Below are positions 35,420-45,230 of a DNA stretch of 45,618 nt, one piece after another. The stretch is taken from NCBI GenBank assembly GCA_020633515.1, contig JACKDM010000040.1, positions 1 through 45,618 on the forward strand. The letters are read 5' to 3'. The stretch's first letter is position 1, and every line of letters starts with the position of its first letter. Made by a program: the position numbers and the translations under genes. The notes below the pieces were generated by a model. The model made no database searches, was not told the DNA's origin, and saw only the letters and a list, made by a program, of their open reading frames with translations. Origin of the DNA: Myxococcales bacterium (GTDB lineage Bacteria; Myxococcota; Bradymonadia; UBA7976; UBA1532).

Positions 35420-35460
35420 ACGGCTGGCGATCGGCGGCGGGGTGCGTCATCATCACCGCC

Positions 35461-35490
35461 ATGCTCACTCGTCGTCCTCGGGGCGGTTGA
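35461..35490 (+). other. Nine-codon leader ORF overlapping the MglA-family start
   Basis: ATG at 35461 opens MLTRRPRGG and stops with TGA at 35488-35490, whose A is the first base of the downstream ATG (TGATG). CATCATC at 35448-35454 lies 6 bases before it. Three consecutive Arg-rich codons and the stop-start overlap suggest possible translational coupling. Whether it is translated cannot be told from sequence. Confidence 0.3.
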
Positions 35491-36170
35491 TGGTTCAGTT
35501 CAACCTGCCGCGCCGCGAGATCACGCTCAAGGTCGTCTACTACGGGCCCGCGCTCAGCGGGAAGACGACGAACCTCCAGGCGCTGCACCTCATGGCGCCG
35601 AGCGGATCGGCCGGGCGGCTGATGACGCTCGAGACCCGCGACGACCGCACGCTCTTCTTCGACCTGCTGCCGGTGGTCTTCCGCTCGGCGGCGGGGTTCA
35701 CGCTCAAGGTCAAGGTGCTGACCGTGCCCGGGCAGGTCATCCACGACTCGACCCGGCGGGTGGTGCTGCAAGGGGCCGACGCGATCGCGTTCATCGCCGA
35801 CAGCCAGGTCTCGGAGACCGAGGCCAACAAGGAGTCGTTTCGCAACCTGCGGGCGAACCTCGAGGCCAATGGGCTGCCGGCCGATCTGCCGATGGTCATT
35901 CAGTTCAACAAACGCGACCTGCCCGAGATCCGCTCCGAGGCCGAGCTGCAAGCCTTTCAGCGGCACCGATCGACGCCGTTGATCCCGGCGATCGCGATCC
36001 GGGGGATCGGGGTGCGCGAGACGCTCGAGGGGCTGCTCTCGGTCGCCTGGGATCGGCTCGACCGCGAGTTCAAGATGGGCGAGCGGCTCAAGGTCGAGAA
36101 GGACGCCTTCCTCGCCGAGGTCTTCCGCGGATGGAAGCCGCCGCAGCCGGTCTTCGGAGGCGGGCGGTGA
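35490..36170 (+). CDS. MglA-family small Ras-like GTPase
   Basis: 226 residues. It aligns well with Myxococcus MglA: REITLKVVYYGPALSGKTTNLQ (shown here as the P-loop region GPALSGKTT), TRDDRTLFFDLLP, the non-canonical switch TVPGQV in place of DxxG, IADSQVSETEANKES and base motif NKRDLP. MglA is a polarity switch controlling motility machinery and is normally paired with the GAP MglB, which is absent here. There is an extra C-terminal tail of about 30 residues (WKPPQPVFGGGR end). The stop overlaps the following kinase start (GTGA), so the two are translationally coupled, pointing to a signalling module. Confidence 0.92.
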   Translation: MVQFNLPRREITLKVVYYGPALSGKTTNLQALHLMAPSGSAGRLMTLETRDDRTLFFDLLPVVFRSAAGFTLKVKVLTVPGQVIHDSTRRVVLQGADAIAFIADSQVSETEANKESFRNLRANLEANGLPADLPMVIQFNKRDLPEIRSEAELQAFQRHRSTPLIPAIAIRGIGVRETLEGLLSVAWDRLDREFKMGERLKVEKDAFLAEVFRGWKPPQPVFGGGR

Positions 36171-37558
36171 GCACCTCGATCCTCGACCGGCCGCCGCAGT
36201 TCGCCGAGCTCTTCGAGCCGGCGCTGCTCACCGAGCTGTGCGCCGCGTTCGGCGACCTGTACCGGCTCGGGCTGCGGGCCTTCGACGATCGCCACGAGCA
36301 GCTCGTCGAGGTCAACCACGACGCGGGGCTCGGGGAGAAGCTGTTCCACGATCCGGTGGTGCAGCGGGCGATGGTCGACTTCATCTCGGGGCTCAAGCGG
36401 CTCGATCCCGAGCGCGGCGAGTCGCTGACGCGGGTCGATCCGGTCGCGGGGACGCGCTACCTGATCGTGCCGGTGGTGTACGAGTTCGAGGTGATCGGCA
36501 AGCTGATCTGCGGGCCCTATCTGCCGGAGACGCCGCCGCCGCTCGCGGAGAGCCCGTACGCGCGGCGGCTGGATGTCGCGGCGGTGGAGCGGGCGCGCTC
36601 GCGGCTGACGACCTTCGGCGAGGCGGGGCTGCGGGCGCGGGTGGCGATGCTGCTCAAGGCCATCGAGACGACCTGCCACTCGGGCTACAAGGCGCTGTTG
36701 ACGAGCAACATGCACCTCGAGTCGATCACCGAGGCCTACAACGATCTGCAGGCGGCCAACCAGCAGCTCCGTGAGCGCAACGAGGCGCTCGCGGCGAGCA
36801 ACGCCCGGCTGCGCGAGCTCGACGAGCTCAAGAGCAACTTCCTCGCGACGGTCAGCCATGAGCTGCGCACGCCGCTCACCAGCGTGATCGGCTACAGCGA
36901 GATGCTCTACGAGGAGCTCGCCGGGCCGCTCAACGACGAGCAGAAGGAGTACCTCGCGACGATCATGGAGCGCGGCGAGAGCCTGCTGCAACTCATCGGG
37001 GGCATCCTCGACATCAGCAAGATCGAGCGGGGGGTCAAGACGCTCTCGCTCGAGCGGGTGACGGTCGAGGCGATCGTCGAGGCCGCGCTGTCGACGGTGC
37101 GACCGCAGGCGCGCAAGGGGCAGCTCGCGCTGGTCGTCGACATCTCCGAAGGGCTGCCGGTGCTCAACGTCGACCGCTACAAGGTGCGGCAATCGCTGGT
37201 GAATCTGCTCTCGAACGCCGTGAAGTTCACCTCGGCGGGCGGCTCGGTGACGGTGCGGGTGCGCCCGAGCATCGCGCCGCGGGCGGGGCACGGCGGGGCC
37301 GACATCCAGGCGGTGCGGTTCTCGGTGCAGGACACCGGCGTGGGGCTGCCCGCCGACCAGCTCGGCAAGGTCTTCGACGCCTTCTATCAGGTCGACAACA
37401 GCTCGACCCGCAGCTATGGCGGCACCGGCCTCGGGCTGTCGATCGTCAAGAACTTCGTCGAGGCGCACGGCGGCGAGGTCTTCGTCGAGAGCGAGGAGGG
37501 CGCCGGCGCGACCTTCTCGTTCGTCGTGCCCGTCGACCAGCCCGGCCGCGCGTCCTGA
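36167..37558 (+). CDS. Cytosolic hybrid-less sensor histidine kinase with PocR-like domain
   Basis: 463 residues without membrane segments. The N-terminal domain (about 10-160) looks like a PocR-type sensory domain (LTELCAAFGDLYRLGL, GTRYLIVPVVYEFEVIGKL). A coiled coil (about 185-222, ending RLRELDELK) connects to a HisKA domain with SHELRTPL (His231). The HATPase domain is complete: N box SLVNLLSNAVKF, G1 DTGVGL and G2 GGTGLGLSIV. There is no receiver domain and no response regulator nearby. The GTG start at 36167 follows GGAGG and overlaps the MglA-family stop. Confidence 0.9.
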   Translation: MSTSILDRPPQFAELFEPALLTELCAAFGDLYRLGLRAFDDRHEQLVEVNHDAGLGEKLFHDPVVQRAMVDFISGLKRLDPERGESLTRVDPVAGTRYLIVPVVYEFEVIGKLICGPYLPETPPPLAESPYARRLDVAAVERARSRLTTFGEAGLRARVAMLLKAIETTCHSGYKALLTSNMHLESITEAYNDLQAANQQLRERNEALAASNARLRELDELKSNFLATVSHELRTPLTSVIGYSEMLYEELAGPLNDEQKEYLATIMERGESLLQLIGGILDISKIERGVKTLSLERVTVEAIVEAALSTVRPQARKGQLALVVDISEGLPVLNVDRYKVRQSLVNLLSNAVKFTSAGGSVTVRVRPSIAPRAGHGGADIQAVRFSVQDTGVGLPADQLGKVFDAFYQVDNSSTRSYGGTGLGLSIVKNFVEAHGGEVFVESEEGAGATFSFVVPVDQPGRAS

Positions 37559-37574
37559 GCCGACTGAGGAATCC

Positions 37575-38540
37575 CTGGACCCCGACCCTGCCATCGAGCC
37601 CGACGACGACCCGCTGCCCGCCGAGGGCGCGCTCGTCGCGATCATCGACGACGAGCTGCGCCGCGCGGGGATCCCGGCCGATCTGCGCGACGACTGCGCC
37701 GCGATCGACACGCCGACCGCGCTGGTGACGACCGACGTGCTCGTCGAGGGCCGCCACTTCGATGTGAAGCGCGACACACCCGAGCAGATCGGCGCGCAGG
37801 CGGCGGTGAGCAACCTCAGCGATCTCGCGGGGAGCGGCGGCGCGGCGGGGTGGCTGGTGTGGGCGCTGACGCTGCCGGCGGGCTTCGGCGCGGGGCGGTT
37901 CCGGCGGCTGGTGCGGGGGTTCGCGACGTGCGCGGCGGCGCACGGGGCGCGGGTGGTGGGCGGCAACCTGAGCCGCACCGACGGACCGGCGGTGATCGCG
38001 GTCACCGCGGGCGGGCCGCTCGCCGGCGCGCGCGCCTTCACCCGGGTCGGCGCGCGACCGGGCGACGCGGTGTACGTCACCGGCCCGCTCGGCGACGCCG
38101 CGATCCGCTGGCAGGACGGTGACCCCGCCGCCCGCGCCGCGCGCCACCACTGGCGCCCGCACCTGCCCGAAGCCGCCGCGCTCGCCGCCTGGGGCGCGGT
38201 CACCGCGGCGATGGACGTCAGCGACGGGCTGCTGATCGACGCCGGCCGCCTCGCCCGCGCGAGCGGGGTCGCGATCGGCTTCGAACGCGCCGCGATCCCG
38301 ACGAGCGCCCACTATCACGCCCGCCGCGGCGACGACCTCGACGCCGCGCTCACCGGCGGCGAGGACTACGTGCTGCTCTTCACCGCCCCGCCCGACGAGG
38401 CGCCCCCGTCGGCCGCGAACGCGCGCCGGATCGGCGTCTGCGCCGCCGGCGCCGGCCTCACGCTCGACGGCCGCCCCGTCGCCGCGCGTGGCCACGACCA
38501 CTTCGCCCCGTCCACGGCCAAGGAGCCCCACGACCGCTGA
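37575..38540 (+). CDS. thiL: Thiamine-monophosphate kinase ThiL, start uncertain (possible CTG)
   Basis: Last step of thiamine diphosphate synthesis: phosphorylates thiamine monophosphate. About 321 residues. AIRS/PurM-fold motifs: LRDDCAAID (Mg/ATP Asp), VTTDVLVEGRHFD, GAQAAVSNLSDLA, GARVVGGNLSRTDGP, AMDVSDGLLIDAGRLA and LTGGEDYVLLFTA, all typical. No ATG, GTG or TTG is found in frame between the kinase stop (37558) and the conserved start region near 37620. A CTG at 37575 lies 4 bases after GAGGA and is the best candidate; ATC at 37593 is another. The start of the next gene overlaps its stop (TGATG). Confidence 0.88.
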   Translation: MDPDPAIEPDDDPLPAEGALVAIIDDELRRAGIPADLRDDCAAIDTPTALVTTDVLVEGRHFDVKRDTPEQIGAQAAVSNLSDLAGSGGAAGWLVWALTLPAGFGAGRFRRLVRGFATCAAAHGARVVGGNLSRTDGPAVIAVTAGGPLAGARAFTRVGARPGDAVYVTGPLGDAAIRWQDGDPAARAARHHWRPHLPEAAALAAWGAVTAAMDVSDGLLIDAGRLARASGVAIGFERAAIPTSAHYHARRGDDLDAALTGGEDYVLLFTAPPDEAPPSAANARRIGVCAAGAGLTLDGRPVAARGHDHFAPSTAKEPHDR

Positions 38541-39568
38541 TGGAGTACGCCCTCTTCTTCATCCTCCTCTTCGTCTCGAGCTTCTTCAGCGGCTCGGAGA
38601 CGGCGCTGTTCAGCATCGGCAAGGTCGCGCTCACCCGATTGCAGCAGTCGCCCCGCGCGATCGACCGGCTCATCGCGCGCCTGCTCGCCTCGCCGCGCGA
38701 CCTGCTCGTCACCGTGCTGCTCGGCAACGAGCTCACCAACATCGCGCTCTCGATCGTCAGCGCCGGCATCACCCGCGGCTGGCTCGAAGACCGCACGCTC
38801 ATCGAGCAGGCGCTGCTCTCGGCGGCGATGGTGGTGCCGCTGCTGCTCGTCGTCGGCGAGATCACCCCCAAGACGCTCGCCGCCCAGCGCGCCGAGGGCA
38901 CCGCGCGCATCATCGCCCGCCCGCTGTCGCTCTTCGCGTTCGTCACCACCCCGATCCGCTACGGGCTGCGCCGCCTCACCGACGCGACGCTGCGGCGCTT
39001 CGCCGGCAAGCAGGGCGAGGCCGCGGCCGACAACACCATCGACGAGCGCGAGTTCCGCACCCTCGTCGACGTCGGCGCGCAGGAGGGCGTCGTCGAAGAG
39101 GGCGAGCGGGCGCTGATCCACAACGTGCTCGACTTCGGCGACCTGCGGGTGCGCGACGTCATGATGCCGTGGAATCAGGTCTTCTCGCTCGCCGACGACC
39201 TGACGATCGACCGGGTCCTCGCCCAGATCACCGACCGCACCCACAGCCGCATCCCGGTGTGGAGCGGCAACCCGCACAACGTGGTCGGCGTGCTCTTCGT
39301 CAAGGACCTGCTCCCCATCCGCTGGGGCGTGCGCCCCGCGCCCCCGCGGCTGCGCCGGCTGCTGCGTCGCCCGCTGTTCACCCTCGGCGGGCGCAGCGCC
39401 GCCGACCTGCTCGACGAGTTCCGCACCCGCCGCACCCACCTCGCGATCGTCGTCGACGAGTTCGGCCGCGCCAAGGGGCTGGTGACGATGGAGGATCTGC
39501 TCGAAGAGCTCTTCGGCCCGATCCACGACGACGAGGCCGAGGCGACCGCGGAGGCGACCCGTGGTTGA
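38540..39568 (+). CDS. CNNM/HlyC-type membrane protein (DUF21 + CBS pair), lacks CorC domain
   Basis: 342 residues. The N-terminal DUF21 membrane domain (about 1-170) has FFSGSETALFSIGK and VLLGNELTNI plus GEITPKTLAAQ, which line the ion site in CNNM/CorB transporters. Two CBS motifs follow (about 200-325; VRDVMMPWNQVF and HLAIVVDEFGRAKGLVTMEDLLEEL). It ends shortly after the second CBS, so the CorC/HlyC C-terminal domain of many relatives is missing. CorB/CNNM proteins export Mg2+ (family knowledge). The start overlaps the thiL stop, and the next gene, a full-length paralogue, overlaps its end by 8 bases. Confidence 0.9.
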   Translation: MEYALFFILLFVSSFFSGSETALFSIGKVALTRLQQSPRAIDRLIARLLASPRDLLVTVLLGNELTNIALSIVSAGITRGWLEDRTLIEQALLSAAMVVPLLLVVGEITPKTLAAQRAEGTARIIARPLSLFAFVTTPIRYGLRRLTDATLRRFAGKQGEAAADNTIDEREFRTLVDVGAQEGVVEEGERALIHNVLDFGDLRVRDVMMPWNQVFSLADDLTIDRVLAQITDRTHSRIPVWSGNPHNVVGVLFVKDLLPIRWGVRPAPPRLRRLLRRPLFTLGGRSAADLLDEFRTRRTHLAIVVDEFGRAKGLVTMEDLLEELFGPIHDDEAEATAEATRG

Positions 39569-40823
39569 CACGCTGCTTCAGCTCCTGCCCTGGATCATCA
39601 TCGGCGGCTGCGTGCTCAGCGAGGCGTTCTTCGCCGCGAGCGAGCTCTCGATCGTCTCCGCCAACGGCATCCGCCTCGAAGAAGCCGCCCGCAACGGCAG
39701 CGCCGCGGCGAAGCGCGTGCTGTGGTTCCGCCAGCACCCCGACCGCCTCTTCGGCACCACCCTGCTCGGCACCAACTTCAGCACCGTCACCGGCTCGACG
39801 ACCGCCTCGCTCACCCTGCTGCGCCTCGACCCGGTCAACGGCGACTGGTGGGCGATGCTGCTCATGTCACCGCTCATCCTCATCGGCGCCGAGATCATCC
39901 CCAAGAGCCTCGGCCAGAGCCGCGCCGACACCCTCTCGCTGCTGCTCTCGGGCCCGCTCTACATCGTGCACCGCGCGCTCACGCCGCTGATCTGGTTCGT
40001 CCGCGGCTACACCGCGACGCTCTACCGCCTCCTCGGCATCGACGACGCCTCGCGCAAGGCGATGGCCTCGCGCGACGAGCTCGTGCTCCTGATGCAGACC
40101 GAGAGCGGCGAGAGCGAGATGAATGCCGACGAGCGCGAGATGATCTCCCGGATCTTCGCCTTCACCCAGCTCGAAGCCAGCGACAGCATGGTCCCGCTCG
40201 TCGAGATCGTCGCCGTGCCCGCCGACTCGACCGTCGAGGACGCCGTCAAGGCCATCTCGCGCCAGGGCTACAGCCGCCTGCCCGTCTACCGCGACCGCAT
40301 CGACAACATCGTCGGGCTCTTGCACCACCTCGACCTGCTCAAGGCCGAGCGCGCCGACCAGCCGGTCACCGAGCTGATGCGCCCGCCCTACTTCGTGCCC
40401 GAGAACCAGGAGATCGACGAGATCCTCATCCTCCTGCAGCGCGAGGCGGCCTCGGCGGCGGTCGTCGTCGACGAGTTCGGCGGCGCGGTCGGGCTGTTGA
40501 CCCTCGAGGACGTGCTCGAAGAGATCGTCGGCGAGATCCACGACGAGTTCGACCCCGAGGGCGGGCTCTGGCGCCAGGTCCCCGACGGCTGGACCATCGA
40601 CGCCCGCGCGCCCGTCGAGCGGGTCAACGAGCACTTCAAGCTCGAGCTGCCCACCGACGACGACTACGAGACCATCGCCGGCTTCATGCTCGACCAGCTC
40701 CGCCACATCCCCCAGCTCGGCGAGACCGTCGCGCTCCCCGACGGCCGCCGCTTCACCGTGCGCCGCGCCAACGCCCGCGCGATCCTCGAGGTCCACCTCA
40801 GCCGCGGCCGCGCCGCCCCATGA
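39561..40823 (+). CDS. CNNM/HlyC-type membrane protein (DUF21 + CBS + CorC_HlyC)
   Basis: 420 residues: DUF21 membrane domain (about 1-180; FFAASELSIVSANGIR, GAEIIPKSLGQ), CBS pair (about 200-320; SRLPVYRDRIDNIVGLLH, VVDEFGGAVGLLTLEDVLEEI) and the C-terminal CorC_HlyC transporter-associated domain (about 335-410; GEIHDEFDPEGG then LPTDDDYETIAGFML). The GTG start follows GGAGG and overlaps the end of the upstream paralogue by 8 bases. The stop overlaps the next start (ATGA). It is probably a Mg2+ or Co2+ transporter subunit; tandem CNNM genes of unequal length suggest a heterodimer. Confidence 0.92.
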   Translation: MVDTLLQLLPWIIIGGCVLSEAFFAASELSIVSANGIRLEEAARNGSAAAKRVLWFRQHPDRLFGTTLLGTNFSTVTGSTTASLTLLRLDPVNGDWWAMLLMSPLILIGAEIIPKSLGQSRADTLSLLLSGPLYIVHRALTPLIWFVRGYTATLYRLLGIDDASRKAMASRDELVLLMQTESGESEMNADEREMISRIFAFTQLEASDSMVPLVEIVAVPADSTVEDAVKAISRQGYSRLPVYRDRIDNIVGLLHHLDLLKAERADQPVTELMRPPYFVPENQEIDEILILLQREAASAAVVVDEFGGAVGLLTLEDVLEEIVGEIHDEFDPEGGLWRQVPDGWTIDARAPVERVNEHFKLELPTDDDYETIAGFMLDQLRHIPQLGETVALPDGRRFTVRRANARAILEVHLSRGRAAP

Positions 40824-42619
40824 GCCCGCTCGGGCCGCCGACCCGCCGCGCGCTCGGCTGGATCCTCCCCCTCCCGCTGCTCTGGGGCCCCGGCCTCGCC
40901 GCCCTCCTCGCCGTCGACCCCTTCGCCGCCCGCGCGCTCACCCGCAGCGGCCTCACGGCCGGCCTCCTCGCCATCGCCGGCGCCATCCTCCTCGTGCGCC
41001 GCTGCCTCCGCCCCGGCCTCCGCCCCGGCTTCGGCGCCGCCTGCGCCCGCGACCTCGGCCTCCTCGTCACCGCGCTCGCGCTCGCCCGCTGGGCCGCCGA
41101 CCACCTCGACCCACGCGTCCCCTTCATCGAAGCCTTCTCCGTGCTCCTCGCCACCCTCGCCCTCGGCTGGAGCGCCTGCCTCGCCGCCTTCCTCACCATC
41201 CAGCCCCTCGCCCGCCGCGCCCCCGCCGCCCCCGGCGAGCGCCTCCCCGCGCTCACCACCCTCTACACCGCCGGCGCCGCCGCGCTCGGCCTCCTCACCG
41301 CCGCGCTCCTCGGCGTCGCCCTCTCCGCCCGCGCCGCCGGCGGCGTCGACCGCGCCCGCCTCGCCGAGCTCCACCTCATCGCCGACCTGCTCGCCGCCGC
41401 CGCCACCCACGGCGACCCCGCCGCCGCGCTCACCACCCTGCACGGCGAGCTCTACCTCGACGCCGCCATCCTCCCCGGCGACGCCCCGCCCCCCTGGCTC
41501 CGCTTCGCCGACGAAGCCCTCGCCGCCCCCGACCACCACCTCCTCCGCTTCGACAGCGCCCGCTTCCACCTCGTCCGCCGCCCCCTCCCGCGCGACACCC
41601 TCTGGATCTGGCAGACCGCCGGCGTCGGCCCCCCGGTGCGCGCGCCCGACGACGCCGGCGCGATCCTCATCCTCGGCATCCTCATGCTCGGCGCCCCGCT
41701 CGGCGCCTGGCTCATCGGCCGTGACCTCGCCGGCCAGCTCCGCCCGCTCACCGACGCGCTCGACCGCATGGGCCACGCCGCCGACCACCCCACCGCGCCG
41801 CTCGACCCCGGCGACGTGCCGCAAGCGAGCAGCGACGAGATCGGCGACCTCGCCGCCGTCGTCGACGACACCGTGCGCCGCTTCGCCGCCCACAACCGCC
41901 ACCTCGCCGCCGAGCTCTCCGTCGCCGCCGGCAGCGATCGCACCCGCACCGGCTTCCTCCACACCGCGAGCTACGAGCTGCGCACCCCGCTGACCACCAT
42001 CACCGGCTACTGCCACCTGCTCCAGCAGACCCCGCTCAACGACGCCCAGCGCGAAGACATCCGCGTCATCGCCGACGCCAGCGCGCAGCTCCTCGACCAC
42101 GTCGACGAGATCCTCGACCTCTCGCGCATCGAAGCCGGCGAAGAGGTCCCCCTCGCCCGCGCCCCGGTCGACCTCGCCGCGCTCGCCGCCGAAGAGCTCG
42201 CCGCCCACGCCGACATCTCACCCGACGTCACCACCGGCGTCGCCGCCGAGCCCGCGCCCCCGGTCGCCGCCGACCGCGCCCGCATCCGGCAGGTCATCGC
42301 CAACCTGCTCGACAACGCGCTCAAGTTCACGACCGCCGGCTACATCGAGATCCGCGTCCGCCCCGAGCCCTTCCGCGGCGCCCCGGCGGTGCACCTCGAG
42401 GTCGCCGACACCGGCCCCGGCATCCCGCCCGACGAGCTCGAGGCGATCTTCGTCGAGTTCCACCGCGTCGCCGCCCAGCGCGGCGTCGCCGGCACCGGCC
42501 TCGGCCTCGCCATCGCCCGTCGCCTCGTCGAACGCCACGGCGGCCGCCTCTGGGCCGAGTCGGTCCTCGGCGAAGGCAGCACCTTCCACCTCGTGCTGCC
42601 GGTGGAGCCGCCGCCATGA
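40820..42619 (+). CDS. Histidine kinase-like membrane protein, phospho-acceptor His replaced by Tyr
   Basis: 599 residues. Several N-terminal membrane helices (about 10-190), an extracytoplasmic-like segment (about 195-290), one more helix (AILILGILMLGAPLGAWLI), a HAMP-like linker (about 305-355), HisKA and HATPase. The H box reads ASYELRTPLTTITGY: Tyr385 (codon TAC, 41972-41974) stands where His is required. The ATPase domain looks complete: N box QVIANLLDNALKF, G1 DTGPGIP and G2 GTGLGLAIARRLVERHGG. It should bind ATP but cannot autophosphorylate in the usual way. Start and stop both overlap neighbours (ATGA); the downstream partner has the opposite defect. Confidence 0.92.
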   Translation: MSPLGPPTRRALGWILPLPLLWGPGLAALLAVDPFAARALTRSGLTAGLLAIAGAILLVRRCLRPGLRPGFGAACARDLGLLVTALALARWAADHLDPRVPFIEAFSVLLATLALGWSACLAAFLTIQPLARRAPAAPGERLPALTTLYTAGAAALGLLTAALLGVALSARAAGGVDRARLAELHLIADLLAAAATHGDPAAALTTLHGELYLDAAILPGDAPPPWLRFADEALAAPDHHLLRFDSARFHLVRRPLPRDTLWIWQTAGVGPPVRAPDDAGAILILGILMLGAPLGAWLIGRDLAGQLRPLTDALDRMGHAADHPTAPLDPGDVPQASSDEIGDLAAVVDDTVRRFAAHNRHLAAELSVAAGSDRTRTGFLHTASYELRTPLTTITGYCHLLQQTPLNDAQREDIRVIADASAQLLDHVDEILDLSRIEAGEEVPLARAPVDLAALAAEELAAHADISPDVTTGVAAEPAPPVAADRARIRQVIANLLDNALKFTTAGYIEIRVRPEPFRGAPAVHLEVADTGPGIPPDELEAIFVEFHRVAAQRGVAGTGLGLAIARRLVERHGGRLWAESVLGEGSTFHLVLPVEPPP

Positions 42620-44358
42620 GCTGGTCGCCGCTCACCGCCATCCGCCTCTACACCGCCACCGCCGGGCTCGCGGCCATCGCGCTCACCGTCTGGCTCGTGC
42701 CGCTGCTCGCCGGTCGCCACGCCCCCGGCGCCGACTGGCAGCTCGGCTACGCGCTCGTCACCGGCGCCACCACCCTCATCGGCGTCTGGCGCATCGGCGC
42801 GCTGCTCGCGACCCTGCCCGCGCAGCCGACCGCCGACCCCCACCACCGCCGCCTCGCCCACGACTTCCCCGTCCGCCTCGCCCGCAGCGCCTTCGTCGGC
42901 GCCGTGCTCTGCGGCGTCGGCACCGGCGCTTGGCTCGCCCACCGCGGCCAGCCGCTCGGCGCCGCCATCGCCACCGGCGCCATCACCTACGTCGTCGCGC
43001 TGTTGCCCGTGCTCGGCCTCTACCTCGTCACCCGCCGCCTCCTGCGCGCCCACGCCGCCGGCCCCCCCGGTTCGGGCCCCGTCCTGGGTCTGCGCCAGCC
43101 CGTCGCCGGCCGCCTCGCGCTCGCCGTGCAGATGCCCGTCGCCGTCTGCGCCGCCGGCCTGCTCCTCGTGCAGCAGAGCGGCGGTGAAGCCTACGGCCTC
43201 GACACCACCACCTACTTCGTCGAGCGCACCCGCACCCTGCAGCGCCGCCTCGCCGCCCGCCTCCCCGACGACGCCGCCCGCGCCGCGCTCACCGCCGCGC
43301 TGCCCGCCGCCCGCCGCGGCAACGACCCCCCGACCGACATAGACCCCGCGCTCGCGCTCGGCTGGCTGCCCTTCACCCTCTTCGGCGCCCTGCTCGCGCT
43401 CACCGCGATCGGCGCCCGCCGCCTCGCCGAAGCCGCCACCGACGACCTCGACGCGATCGGCGACGCGCTGCGCCGCATCGACGAAGACGAACCCCCGCCC
43501 CCACCGCCCGTCGCGCTGCGCGAGACCGCCGCCGTCGCCGCCGCCTTGCAGCGCACCCTGCACGGCCTCGCCGCCCAACGCGCCGCGCTCCGCCGCGCCG
43601 CCGCCGAGCGCCGCAAGGCCGACGCCGCCAAGGCCCGCTTCCTCGCCCACCTCAGCCACGAGCTCAAGAGCCCGCTCAACTCGATCCTCGGCTTCGCCGA
43701 GCTGCTCCTCGCCGAGATCGACGGCCCGCTCGAAGACCGCCAGCGCACCCGCCTCGGCATCCTCTGGCGCAGCGGCGAGTCGCTGTTGCGCTTCATCCTC
43801 GCGCTGCTCGACCTCAGCCGCCTCGAAGGCCTGCGCGACCCTGCCGCCGCCGCGGTGCGCATCACCGGCTTCACCCCCTCGCCCAACCGCCTCGACGACC
43901 TCGCCCGCGTGCTCGCCACCCAGCTCCGCCCCGACCCGCTCGCGCTCGCCGCGGTCACCATCACCCCCGCCCCGCCCCCCGCCGGCGAGCCCCCCCGCGC
44001 CCGCTTCGACCCGGTGCACACCGCCCGCGCGCTCTACCTCGCCGCCGGCGGCCTGCTCGACGCGCTCGAAGCCGGCGAGGTCGAGATCGCGCTCGCCCAC
44101 CGCGACGGCGTCTTCGAATGCCGGATCCGCGTCATCGCCGCCGACGGCGAAGTGAGCGAACGCCCCGCCCTCGTCGAGCGCTGGCGCCGCGCCGACGCCG
44201 ACGCCCGCGACCCCGAGCGCGCCGCCGCCGCCGACCTCCGCGGCGCCCCGATCCTGCTCCTGCACCGCCTCTGCGCCGTGCAGGGCGGCGCCGTCGCGCT
44301 CACCCGCCTCGAACCCTGGCCCGAGCTCGTGCTCACCCTCCCCGTCGAAGCCACCTGA
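42616..44358 (+). CDS. Histidine kinase-like membrane protein with degenerate ATPase domain
   Basis: 580 residues. About five or six membrane helices (roughly 8-30, 42-65, 92-112, 116-140, 172-190, 250-272) with a loop around 195-245, a HAMP-like segment, a coiled coil and a HisKA domain. The H box is normal: HLSHELKSPLNSILGF, His348 (codon CAC, 43657-43659). The C-terminal region still has the outline of a HATPase, but the N box is ARALYLAAGGLLDAL without Asn, no DxGxG box is present, and the G2 region reads LRGAPILLLHRLCAVQGG instead of GxGLGL. It probably cannot bind ATP and could be phosphorylated by the upstream kinase. The start overlaps the upstream stop (ATGA). Confidence 0.9.
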   Translation: MSWSPLTAIRLYTATAGLAAIALTVWLVPLLAGRHAPGADWQLGYALVTGATTLIGVWRIGALLATLPAQPTADPHHRRLAHDFPVRLARSAFVGAVLCGVGTGAWLAHRGQPLGAAIATGAITYVVALLPVLGLYLVTRRLLRAHAAGPPGSGPVLGLRQPVAGRLALAVQMPVAVCAAGLLLVQQSGGEAYGLDTTTYFVERTRTLQRRLAARLPDDAARAALTAALPAARRGNDPPTDIDPALALGWLPFTLFGALLALTAIGARRLAEAATDDLDAIGDALRRIDEDEPPPPPPVALRETAAVAAALQRTLHGLAAQRAALRRAAAERRKADAAKARFLAHLSHELKSPLNSILGFAELLLAEIDGPLEDRQRTRLGILWRSGESLLRFILALLDLSRLEGLRDPAAAAVRITGFTPSPNRLDDLARVLATQLRPDPLALAAVTITPAPPPAGEPPRARFDPVHTARALYLAAGGLLDALEAGEVEIALAHRDGVFECRIRVIAADGEVSERPALVERWRRADADARDPERAAAADLRGAPILLLHRLCAVQGGAVALTRLEPWPELVLTLPVEAT

Positions 44359-44360
44359 CC

Positions 44361-45230
44361 ATGCGCCGCACCCTCCGCCACTGGCTCGAAGTCTCCCGCC
44401 CCGGCCTCTGGTTCCCCACCATCTGGCTCTACGCGCTCCCCCTCGCCGGCCGCCACCTGCTCGACAGCCCCCGCTTCTGGATCGGCCTCGCCTTCGTCAC
44501 CTTCCCCCTCAACTTCGTCCTCTACGGCTGGAACGACATCGCCGACGCCGACATCGACCGCCACAACCCCCGCAAGGGCAACCTGCTCTTCGGCGCCCGC
44601 GCCACCGACGCCGAGCTCGCCCGCCTCCCCCGCGCGCTCGTCGCCGTCGGCCTGCTCGCCGCGCTCCCCCTCGTCCTGCTCGACGGCCCCCGCATGGCCG
44701 CGCTGCTCGCCGCCATCGCCGCCGTGCTCTGGCTCTACAACCGCCGCCCCCACGGCCTGCGCAGCCACCCCCCGCTCGAGCTCTGCTGCCAGTTCGGCTA
44801 CCTCCTCGTCGTGCCCCTCAGCGCCTGGCTCAACGCGCTGCCCCTGCCCCCCGCGCCCACCGCGGCCTACCTCGCGCTCTTCGCGATCCAGTCGCACCTC
44901 ATGGGCGAGGTGATGGACATCGACCCCGACCGCGCCACCGGCCGCCGCACCACCGCGACCGTCATCGGCGCCCGCAACACCAAGCTCGTCATCATCGGCG
45001 TCGTCGCCGCCGAGGTCGCGATGCTCTTCTTCGTCTTCGGCGACCCCTGGTTCGGCGGCGCGCTCGCGCTCTTCCTCGCCTGGCTCGTGCTCGACGTCGC
45101 CGTGCTCTTCCGCGGCCGCGCCTACACCCTCGCGCAGATGAAGCTCTTCGCCGTGCTCACCAACCTCGTCGCCGTCGCGAGCATGCTCTACGTCTGGTGG
45201 AGCGGCTGCCTCCTCCACCTCCCCCCCTGA
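44361..45230 (+). CDS. UbiA-family prenyltransferase
   Basis: 289 residues with about eight or nine membrane helices. Transfers a polyprenyl group to an acceptor in the membrane. The two Mg-diphosphate motifs are present: NDIADADID (Asn58 to Asp66) and DIDPDRATGRRT (Asp186, Asp188, Asp190). Between them YNRRPHGLRSHPP is a typical conserved loop. The pattern resembles the lycopene elongase / bacteriochlorophyll and carotenoid prenylation branch more than UbiA or MenA, but the acceptor is unknown. The ATG lies 2 bases after the kinase stop, so it belongs to the same transcription unit. An ATG is used without an obvious ribosome binding site. Confidence 0.9.
   Translation: MRRTLRHWLEVSRPGLWFPTIWLYALPLAGRHLLDSPRFWIGLAFVTFPLNFVLYGWNDIADADIDRHNPRKGNLLFGARATDAELARLPRALVAVGLLAALPLVLLDGPRMAALLAAIAAVLWLYNRRPHGLRSHPPLELCCQFGYLLVVPLSAWLNALPLPPAPTAAYLALFAIQSHLMGEVMDIDPDRATGRRTTATVIGARNTKLVIIGVVAAEVAMLFFVFGDPWFGGALALFLAWLVLDVAVLFRGRAYTLAQMKLFAVLTNLVAVASMLYVWWSGCLLHLPP

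Follow-up and report, generated by a model that had tools for sequence, protein, structure and literature searches.

The window analysed here, a stretch of 45,618 nucleotides from Myxococcales bacterium (assembly GCA_020633515.1, contig JACKDM010000040.1), carries two overlapping genes for membrane histidine kinases, HK1 and HK2, whose products probably form one heteromeric histidine kinase with HK1 phosphorylating HK2 in trans at His348. Histidine kinases usually are homodimers. For the lineage of the window, the best explanation of the sequence features is that HK1 and HK2 are complementary halves of a single kinase. The two proteins would assemble as a heteromeric membrane kinase, the catalytic domain of HK1 would bind ATP and phosphorylate His348 of HK2 across a heteromeric DHp bundle, and HK2 would hand the phosphate on to a response regulator whose gene lies elsewhere. 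If this is true, a single phosphate output is made only when two different sensors in the membrane agree, and the family holds a natural record of a homodimeric kinase turning into an obligate heteromer.

HK1 (40820..42619, 599 aa; coordinates with two dots denote the forward strand) has Tyr385 at the acceptor site, encoded by TAC at 41972–41974 inside FLHTASYELRTPL, and an intact ATP-binding domain. Its HisKA (DHp) domain (residues 376–440, 41945..42139) and its HATPase_c domain (residues 485–596, 42272..42607), in which a residue check located the N, G1, F, and G2 boxes, match Pfam with 60.8 and 106.6 bits, respectively, both above the Pfam cut-offs; the only other matches are weak, sub-cut-off HATPase relatives. 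HK2 (42616..44358, 580 aa), a membrane histidine kinase-like protein without recognisable ATP-binding motifs, begins within the stop codon of HK1 by an ATGA overlap (42616..42619) and has His348 (CAC, 43657–43659) at the acceptor site. HisKA (DHp; residues 338–404, 43627..43827) is its sole Pfam match at E 0.1, and no HATPase_c match was obtained at this threshold. Residues 421–577 (43876..44346) were assigned as a degenerate catalytic domain from an AF2 model, matches to kinase catalytic domains, and profile comparison; the model keeps the kinase catalytic fold, while the ATP motifs are gone. A first-pass annotation of this DNA had already described the Tyr in HK1 next to a full set of ATP boxes, the start of HK2 inside the HK1 stop, and a normal His in HK2 together with lost N and G boxes, and all three descriptions are borne out.

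The same annotation considered both proteins multi-pass with similar layout. A simple hydropathy scan agrees, yielding six candidate membrane segments in HK1 and five in HK2, and the helix layouts are alike in the structure models of the two proteins. An hhalign alignment of HK1 with HK2 spans the kinase core and the first four N-terminal helices; the N-terminal parts score 59.8, compared with 26.0 for the reversed sequence and 18.5–27.9 for eight block shuffles. Both proteins are best explained as membrane sensors that are paralogues of each other.

Relatives were collected by protein and genome searches. The HK2 protein search returned 58 matches, 44 of which, including the window's own protein, constitute the family (at least 182 bits, the next match having 53). 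The HK1 search gave 1342 matches; the first 25 among the 120 listed, again with the window's own, were taken as HK1 relatives (at least 352 bits, next 226, with coverage falling from 87–100% to 37%), and one partial row, P0076, was kept at 68% coverage. The sensor part of HK1, used as a query, found 11 proteins, one of them new (P0179, Gln at the acceptor site), a low yield probably caused by common hydrophobic words that filled the 7996 scored candidates. The HK2 alignment was also run against genomes, and the best 80 of 388 loci were kept. L001–L011 match most of HK2; the remaining loci match only a part centred on the His region, and L012 onward were treated as generic kinases outside the analysis. 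A twelfth pair (L092 and L100 in genome G244) came from genome scans of the phylum. The resulting alignments contain 38 HK1 rows, equal to 36 distinct sequences as loci and database rows overlap, and 56 HK2 rows, one of which is cut by a contig end; 55 rows reach the His site, and removal of seven near-copies leaves 48. Among the matches listed (the best 25 of 77 for HK1, all 23 for HK2), no NCBIfam family lies above its cut-off for either protein, and none of 28 matching plasmid records covers 80% of the HK2 query.

The residues that each protein keeps are those expected if HK1 gives the ATP and HK2 the acceptor. At the HK1 acceptor site, His occurs in 22 rows, Tyr in 13, Gln in two, and Asp in one, whereas 38 of 38 rows, irrespective of the residue at the His site, retain the N-box Asn pair, Lys502, Asp530, the glycines tested in G1 and G2, and the two Phe tested. 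HK2 shows the reverse. All 55 rows that extend to the site have His348, Glu349, Ser352, and Asn355, none of the 44 database relatives has PF02518 among its listed domains, and neither an N-box nor a G1 pattern occurs in the 56 rows (one being too short to tell); two rows, P0027 and L009, have loose matches to the G2 pattern and none of the other boxes. The expectation of the first-pass annotation that the loss of the N and G boxes would be fixed in HK2 orthologues holds in every tested row that reaches them, while its companion expectation of a fixed Tyr in HK1 is contradicted by the His-bearing rows. Orthologues with a normal His in gene 1 had been named by that annotation itself as a refutation of its proposal; a normal ATPase domain in gene 2, which it had named as well, was seen neither in the 44 database relatives nor in the aligned HK2 rows. 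Mean pairwise identities over 12 pairs (window and L001–L011) follow the same division. They amount in HK2 to 0.31 for the sensor, 0.90 for DHp helix 1, 0.61 for the rest of DHp, and 0.30 for the catalytic domain, and in HK1 to 0.32, 0.60, 0.54, and 0.58, with 0.73 for the N box, 0.82 for G1, and 0.91 for G2. As read from these alignments, constraint is split between the two proteins, and the pattern supports the proposed roles of HK1 and HK2. As controls, His is at the site in 10 of 10 examined copies of HK3, a canonical kinase encoded nearby (see below), and in 94 of 95 other kinases from the HK1 search, the remaining one not having been matched by the script.

The H boxes of neighbouring proteins point in the same direction. 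Erosion of the HK1 H box extends past the His in L007 (Gln) and L011 (Asp), whereas the H box of the adjoining HK2 is intact. Going by sequence only, acceptor and ATP binding lie on different proteins in the Tyr, Gln, and Asp lineages. One could suppose instead that HK2 merely binds, takes no phosphate, and modulates HK1 homodimers like RetS does with GacS. By sequence, GacS and RetS are indeed the solved relatives nearest to HK2, and heterodimer formation is the means by which RetS inhibits GacS. A pure binder, however, would not need the H-box His and Glu that 55 of 55 HK2 rows have at this site, and the pair would be left without any acceptor where HK1 has lost its His, so we regard this explanation as improbable. 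GacS and RetS of Pseudomonas resemble HK1 and HK2 as two kinases forming heterodimers, but both can also be homodimers, RetS is the inhibitor, and we saw no description of complementary loss.

A sequencing error at Tyr385 is unlikely, as Tyr recurs in 13 of the 38 HK1 rows from several sources (two of the 13 repeat other rows). Independently of this, HK1 of the window is an exact mosaic of two database proteins, both with Tyr at the acceptor site: residues 1–272 are identical to P0060 and residues 264–599 to P0062, each of which differs outside its matching part, with a shared stretch at 41609–41635 (residues 264–272). The mosaic may stem either from natural recombination or from a chimeric assembly of two strains.

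Could Tyr385 itself accept the phosphate, making HK1 a tyrosine kinase of the two-component fold? The H-box stretch is the same in all 13 Tyr rows bar one position, and DivL was, judging from the title, first published as a tyrosine kinase (Wu et al., 1999). On the other hand, the equivalent position holds His, Gln, or Asp in relatives whose ATP site is the same, and one His row falls inside the Tyr group. Gln is not known as a phospho-acceptor. We therefore hold a phosphorylated Tyr385 to be very improbable.

HK1 and HK2 also travel together. Among 377 Myxococcota genomes, with three candidates scored in each genome listed, HK2 (E 1e-40) and HK1 (E 1e-90) were found in an identical set of 12, although 11 of these are the source of the loci already collected and only G244 is an independent find. 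Within the order of G001, deeper scoring detected HK2 in 12 of 16 genomes. HK1 directly precedes HK2 in 12 of 12 loci, and in 11 of the 12 the genes overlap in frame, nine by ATGA and two (L006 and L100) by GTGA; in L005 an ATGA is present but out of frame with HK2. The prediction of the first-pass annotation that the pair always co-occurs is in line with these counts. They also bear on the possibility that both genes are decaying remnants of a two-component system, as might be suggested by the loss of a catalytic element from each gene and the drift of the HK2 catalytic domain. Open frames, co-occurrence and adjacency in 12 of 12 cases, invariant ATP residues in HK1, and an invariant His in HK2 make decay barely credible as a general account and agree with the earlier preference for retained function.

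How the two lesions arose can be approached from the HK1 tree, which was calculated from 34 rows (four near-copies of loci dropped from the 38) with the H-box columns excluded, and which comprises 20 His, 11 Tyr, two Gln, and one Asp row. It requires at least four changes of state at the acceptor site. A single clade of all non-His rows was rejected in the approximately unbiased (AU) test (p 0.0005); therefore, HK1 probably lost its acceptor His at least twice, as far as can be judged from these sequences. A single clade of the Tyr rows was also rejected (p 0.008), owing to P0069, a His row on a long branch that is placed in their midst. Some branches are long, so that the placement of single rows is unsure, and the tested groups were named after seeing the tree. 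P0069, a protein database entry, might be a reversion. The most economical history would begin with the loss of ATP binding by HK2, in the simplest case as one event that predates the divergence of the sampled lineages. This loss would have made the His of HK2 the working acceptor, leaving the His of HK1 dispensable and free to be lost; it would then have been replaced, most simply at least twice, by Tyr and by Gln or Asp. With some reserve, we favour the view that the pair is an obligate heteromer across the order, in which an early, single loss of ATP binding in HK2 was followed by two or more losses of the acceptor in HK1, so that the pair in the window's lineage has one type of subunit for ATP binding and one for the acceptor. 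Dependence should be asymmetric, with HK2 always needing its partner and HK1 only in lineages without the His. The original proposal that neither protein works alone accordingly fits the complementary defects in the window's lineage, but not necessarily those relatives whose HK1 keeps the His.

Several observations weigh against a heteromeric kinase of this kind. The His-bearing HK1 that persists in 22 of the 38 rows could act alone there. The position of P0069 within the Tyr group suggests that Tyr arose twice or reverted. HK1 of L009 retains its His in an eroded H box beside an intact HK2; erosion of the H box and loss of the His are thus not identical. The residue at position +4 after the acceptor His of HK2 is Ser352 (43669–43671) in 55 of 55 rows, not Thr or Asn, and falls outside the phosphatase motif HE/DxxN/T quoted in PMC3591291; on this ground the phosphatase activity of HK2 may be weak. 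The pair has no known response regulator, and no biochemistry on it was found. Finally, a complete kinase that could be the donor to HK2 is encoded in the neighbourhood. This is HK3 (36131..37558), a canonical histidine kinase by domain match (HisKA with His, HATPase_c), which the first-pass annotation did not mention. It lies upstream of HK1–HK2 in 10 of the 12 related loci; in L005 a kinase match is located about 8.5 kb upstream, and the contig of L007 begins within the CNNM gene.

HK3 or a distant kinase would phosphorylate His348 if HK1 were a pseudo-histidine kinase of the DivL type, exerting allosteric control over HK2 or another kinase. Tyr at the His position together with a retained catalytic domain (fold 4q20) is the defining feature of DivL of Caulobacter, and HK1 shows both in 13 of 38 rows. 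DivL is described as catalytically inactive, acting on CckA (PMC12189002). In HK1, by contrast, three different residues replace the His, Tyr being one of them, and HK2 next to it lacks an ATP site. Moreover, the tested ATP-binding residues of HK1 stay invariant in 38 of 38 rows even after loss of the His, and a pure scaffold would not need them. A clear membrane segment is absent from HK3, whose 19-residue hydropathy peaks at 1.44, and it is HK1, not HK3, that adjoins HK2 in 12 of 12 loci. For these reasons, a DivL-like role of HK1 is unlikely, though less so than the other alternatives, and phosphorylation of HK2 by HK1 remains our preferred explanation.

There is a precedent for a split kinase working in trans. 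The CheA3 and CheA4 proteins of Rhodobacter sphaeroides do not autophosphorylate alone, but a mixture of both does, as shown biochemically (PMC3591291). They resemble HK1 and HK2 in having the phospho-acceptor and ATP-binding parts on two proteins. They differ in their CheA architecture, which was not found in HK1 or HK2, and in that whole domains are missing; here, full-length membrane HisKA sensors have suffered losses that are point-like (His) or due to drift (ATP motifs). For FasB and FasC of group A Streptococcus, trans-phosphorylation has been proposed: two-hybrid evidence indicates heterodimers and not homodimers, the kinase domain of FasC is dispensable, and two-hybrid and mutant data led to the suggestion that the FasB kinase phosphorylates His246 of FasC (PMC12675982). 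Like HK1 and HK2, these are two adjacent multi-pass kinase-like proteins. However, HATPase is predicted in both Fas proteins, FasB has a candidate His, and the regulator FasA is co-encoded. In the pair described here, ATP motifs are not recognisable in HK2, HK1 of the window's lineage is devoid of the acceptor His, and the surroundings yielded no regulator. What sets this pair apart is that complementary lesions occur in both partners of a HisKA pair whose proteins are full-length and membrane-bound. No literature description of the Myxococcota HK1/HK2 pair was recognised by title or start of abstract among the first 10–20 papers listed by full-text searches, whose coverage excludes most subscription journals. 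Of HisKA proteins, 3.66% are counted as lacking a HATPase domain, and some of these have been suggested to be split kinases (PMC3591291). We infer that finding the partner is the hard part for such proteins; in the case of HK2, it can be named from co-occurrence and adjacency. In addition, HK1 with and without His both survive in the relatives, and HK1 with His beside HK2 without an ATP site apparently represents a surviving intermediate stage. The succession of steps by which a homodimer becomes an obligate heteromer is therefore directly testable, and natural proteins can serve as controls.

The pair is embedded in a conserved neighbourhood, defined by domain match and locus comparison. The start of HK1 sits in the stop codon of a gene for a CNNM/CBS/CorC_HlyC membrane protein (39561..40823; ATGA, 40820–40823), an overlap likewise absent from the first-pass annotation. 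This gene stands directly before HK1 in 10 of the 12 related loci; in L005 the two are 4.5 kb apart, and none was found in L100. It is preceded by a gene for another CNNM/CBS membrane protein (38540..39568) and one for an AIR synthase-related protein (37416..38540), probably ThiL. A scan of the window with a home-made profile of nine receiver domains (E 1e-3) revealed none, consistent with the earlier statement that no response regulator is adjacent. A receiver-domain frame directly follows HK3 in L004 (3441–3827) and lies next to HK3 in L006 (3213–3722); none was detected beside HK3 in the other nine of 11 loci scanned. Downstream, a UbiA-family gene (44361–45230, start chosen by us) begins two bases past HK2 and was dropped as a partner, since none of the 12 related loci gave a match at E 1e-8. 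HK3, in turn, overlaps a small GTPase-like gene (35442–36170, weak sub-cut-off Arf match), presumably MglA-like, and such a gene is present near HK1–HK2 in seven of the 12 related loci.
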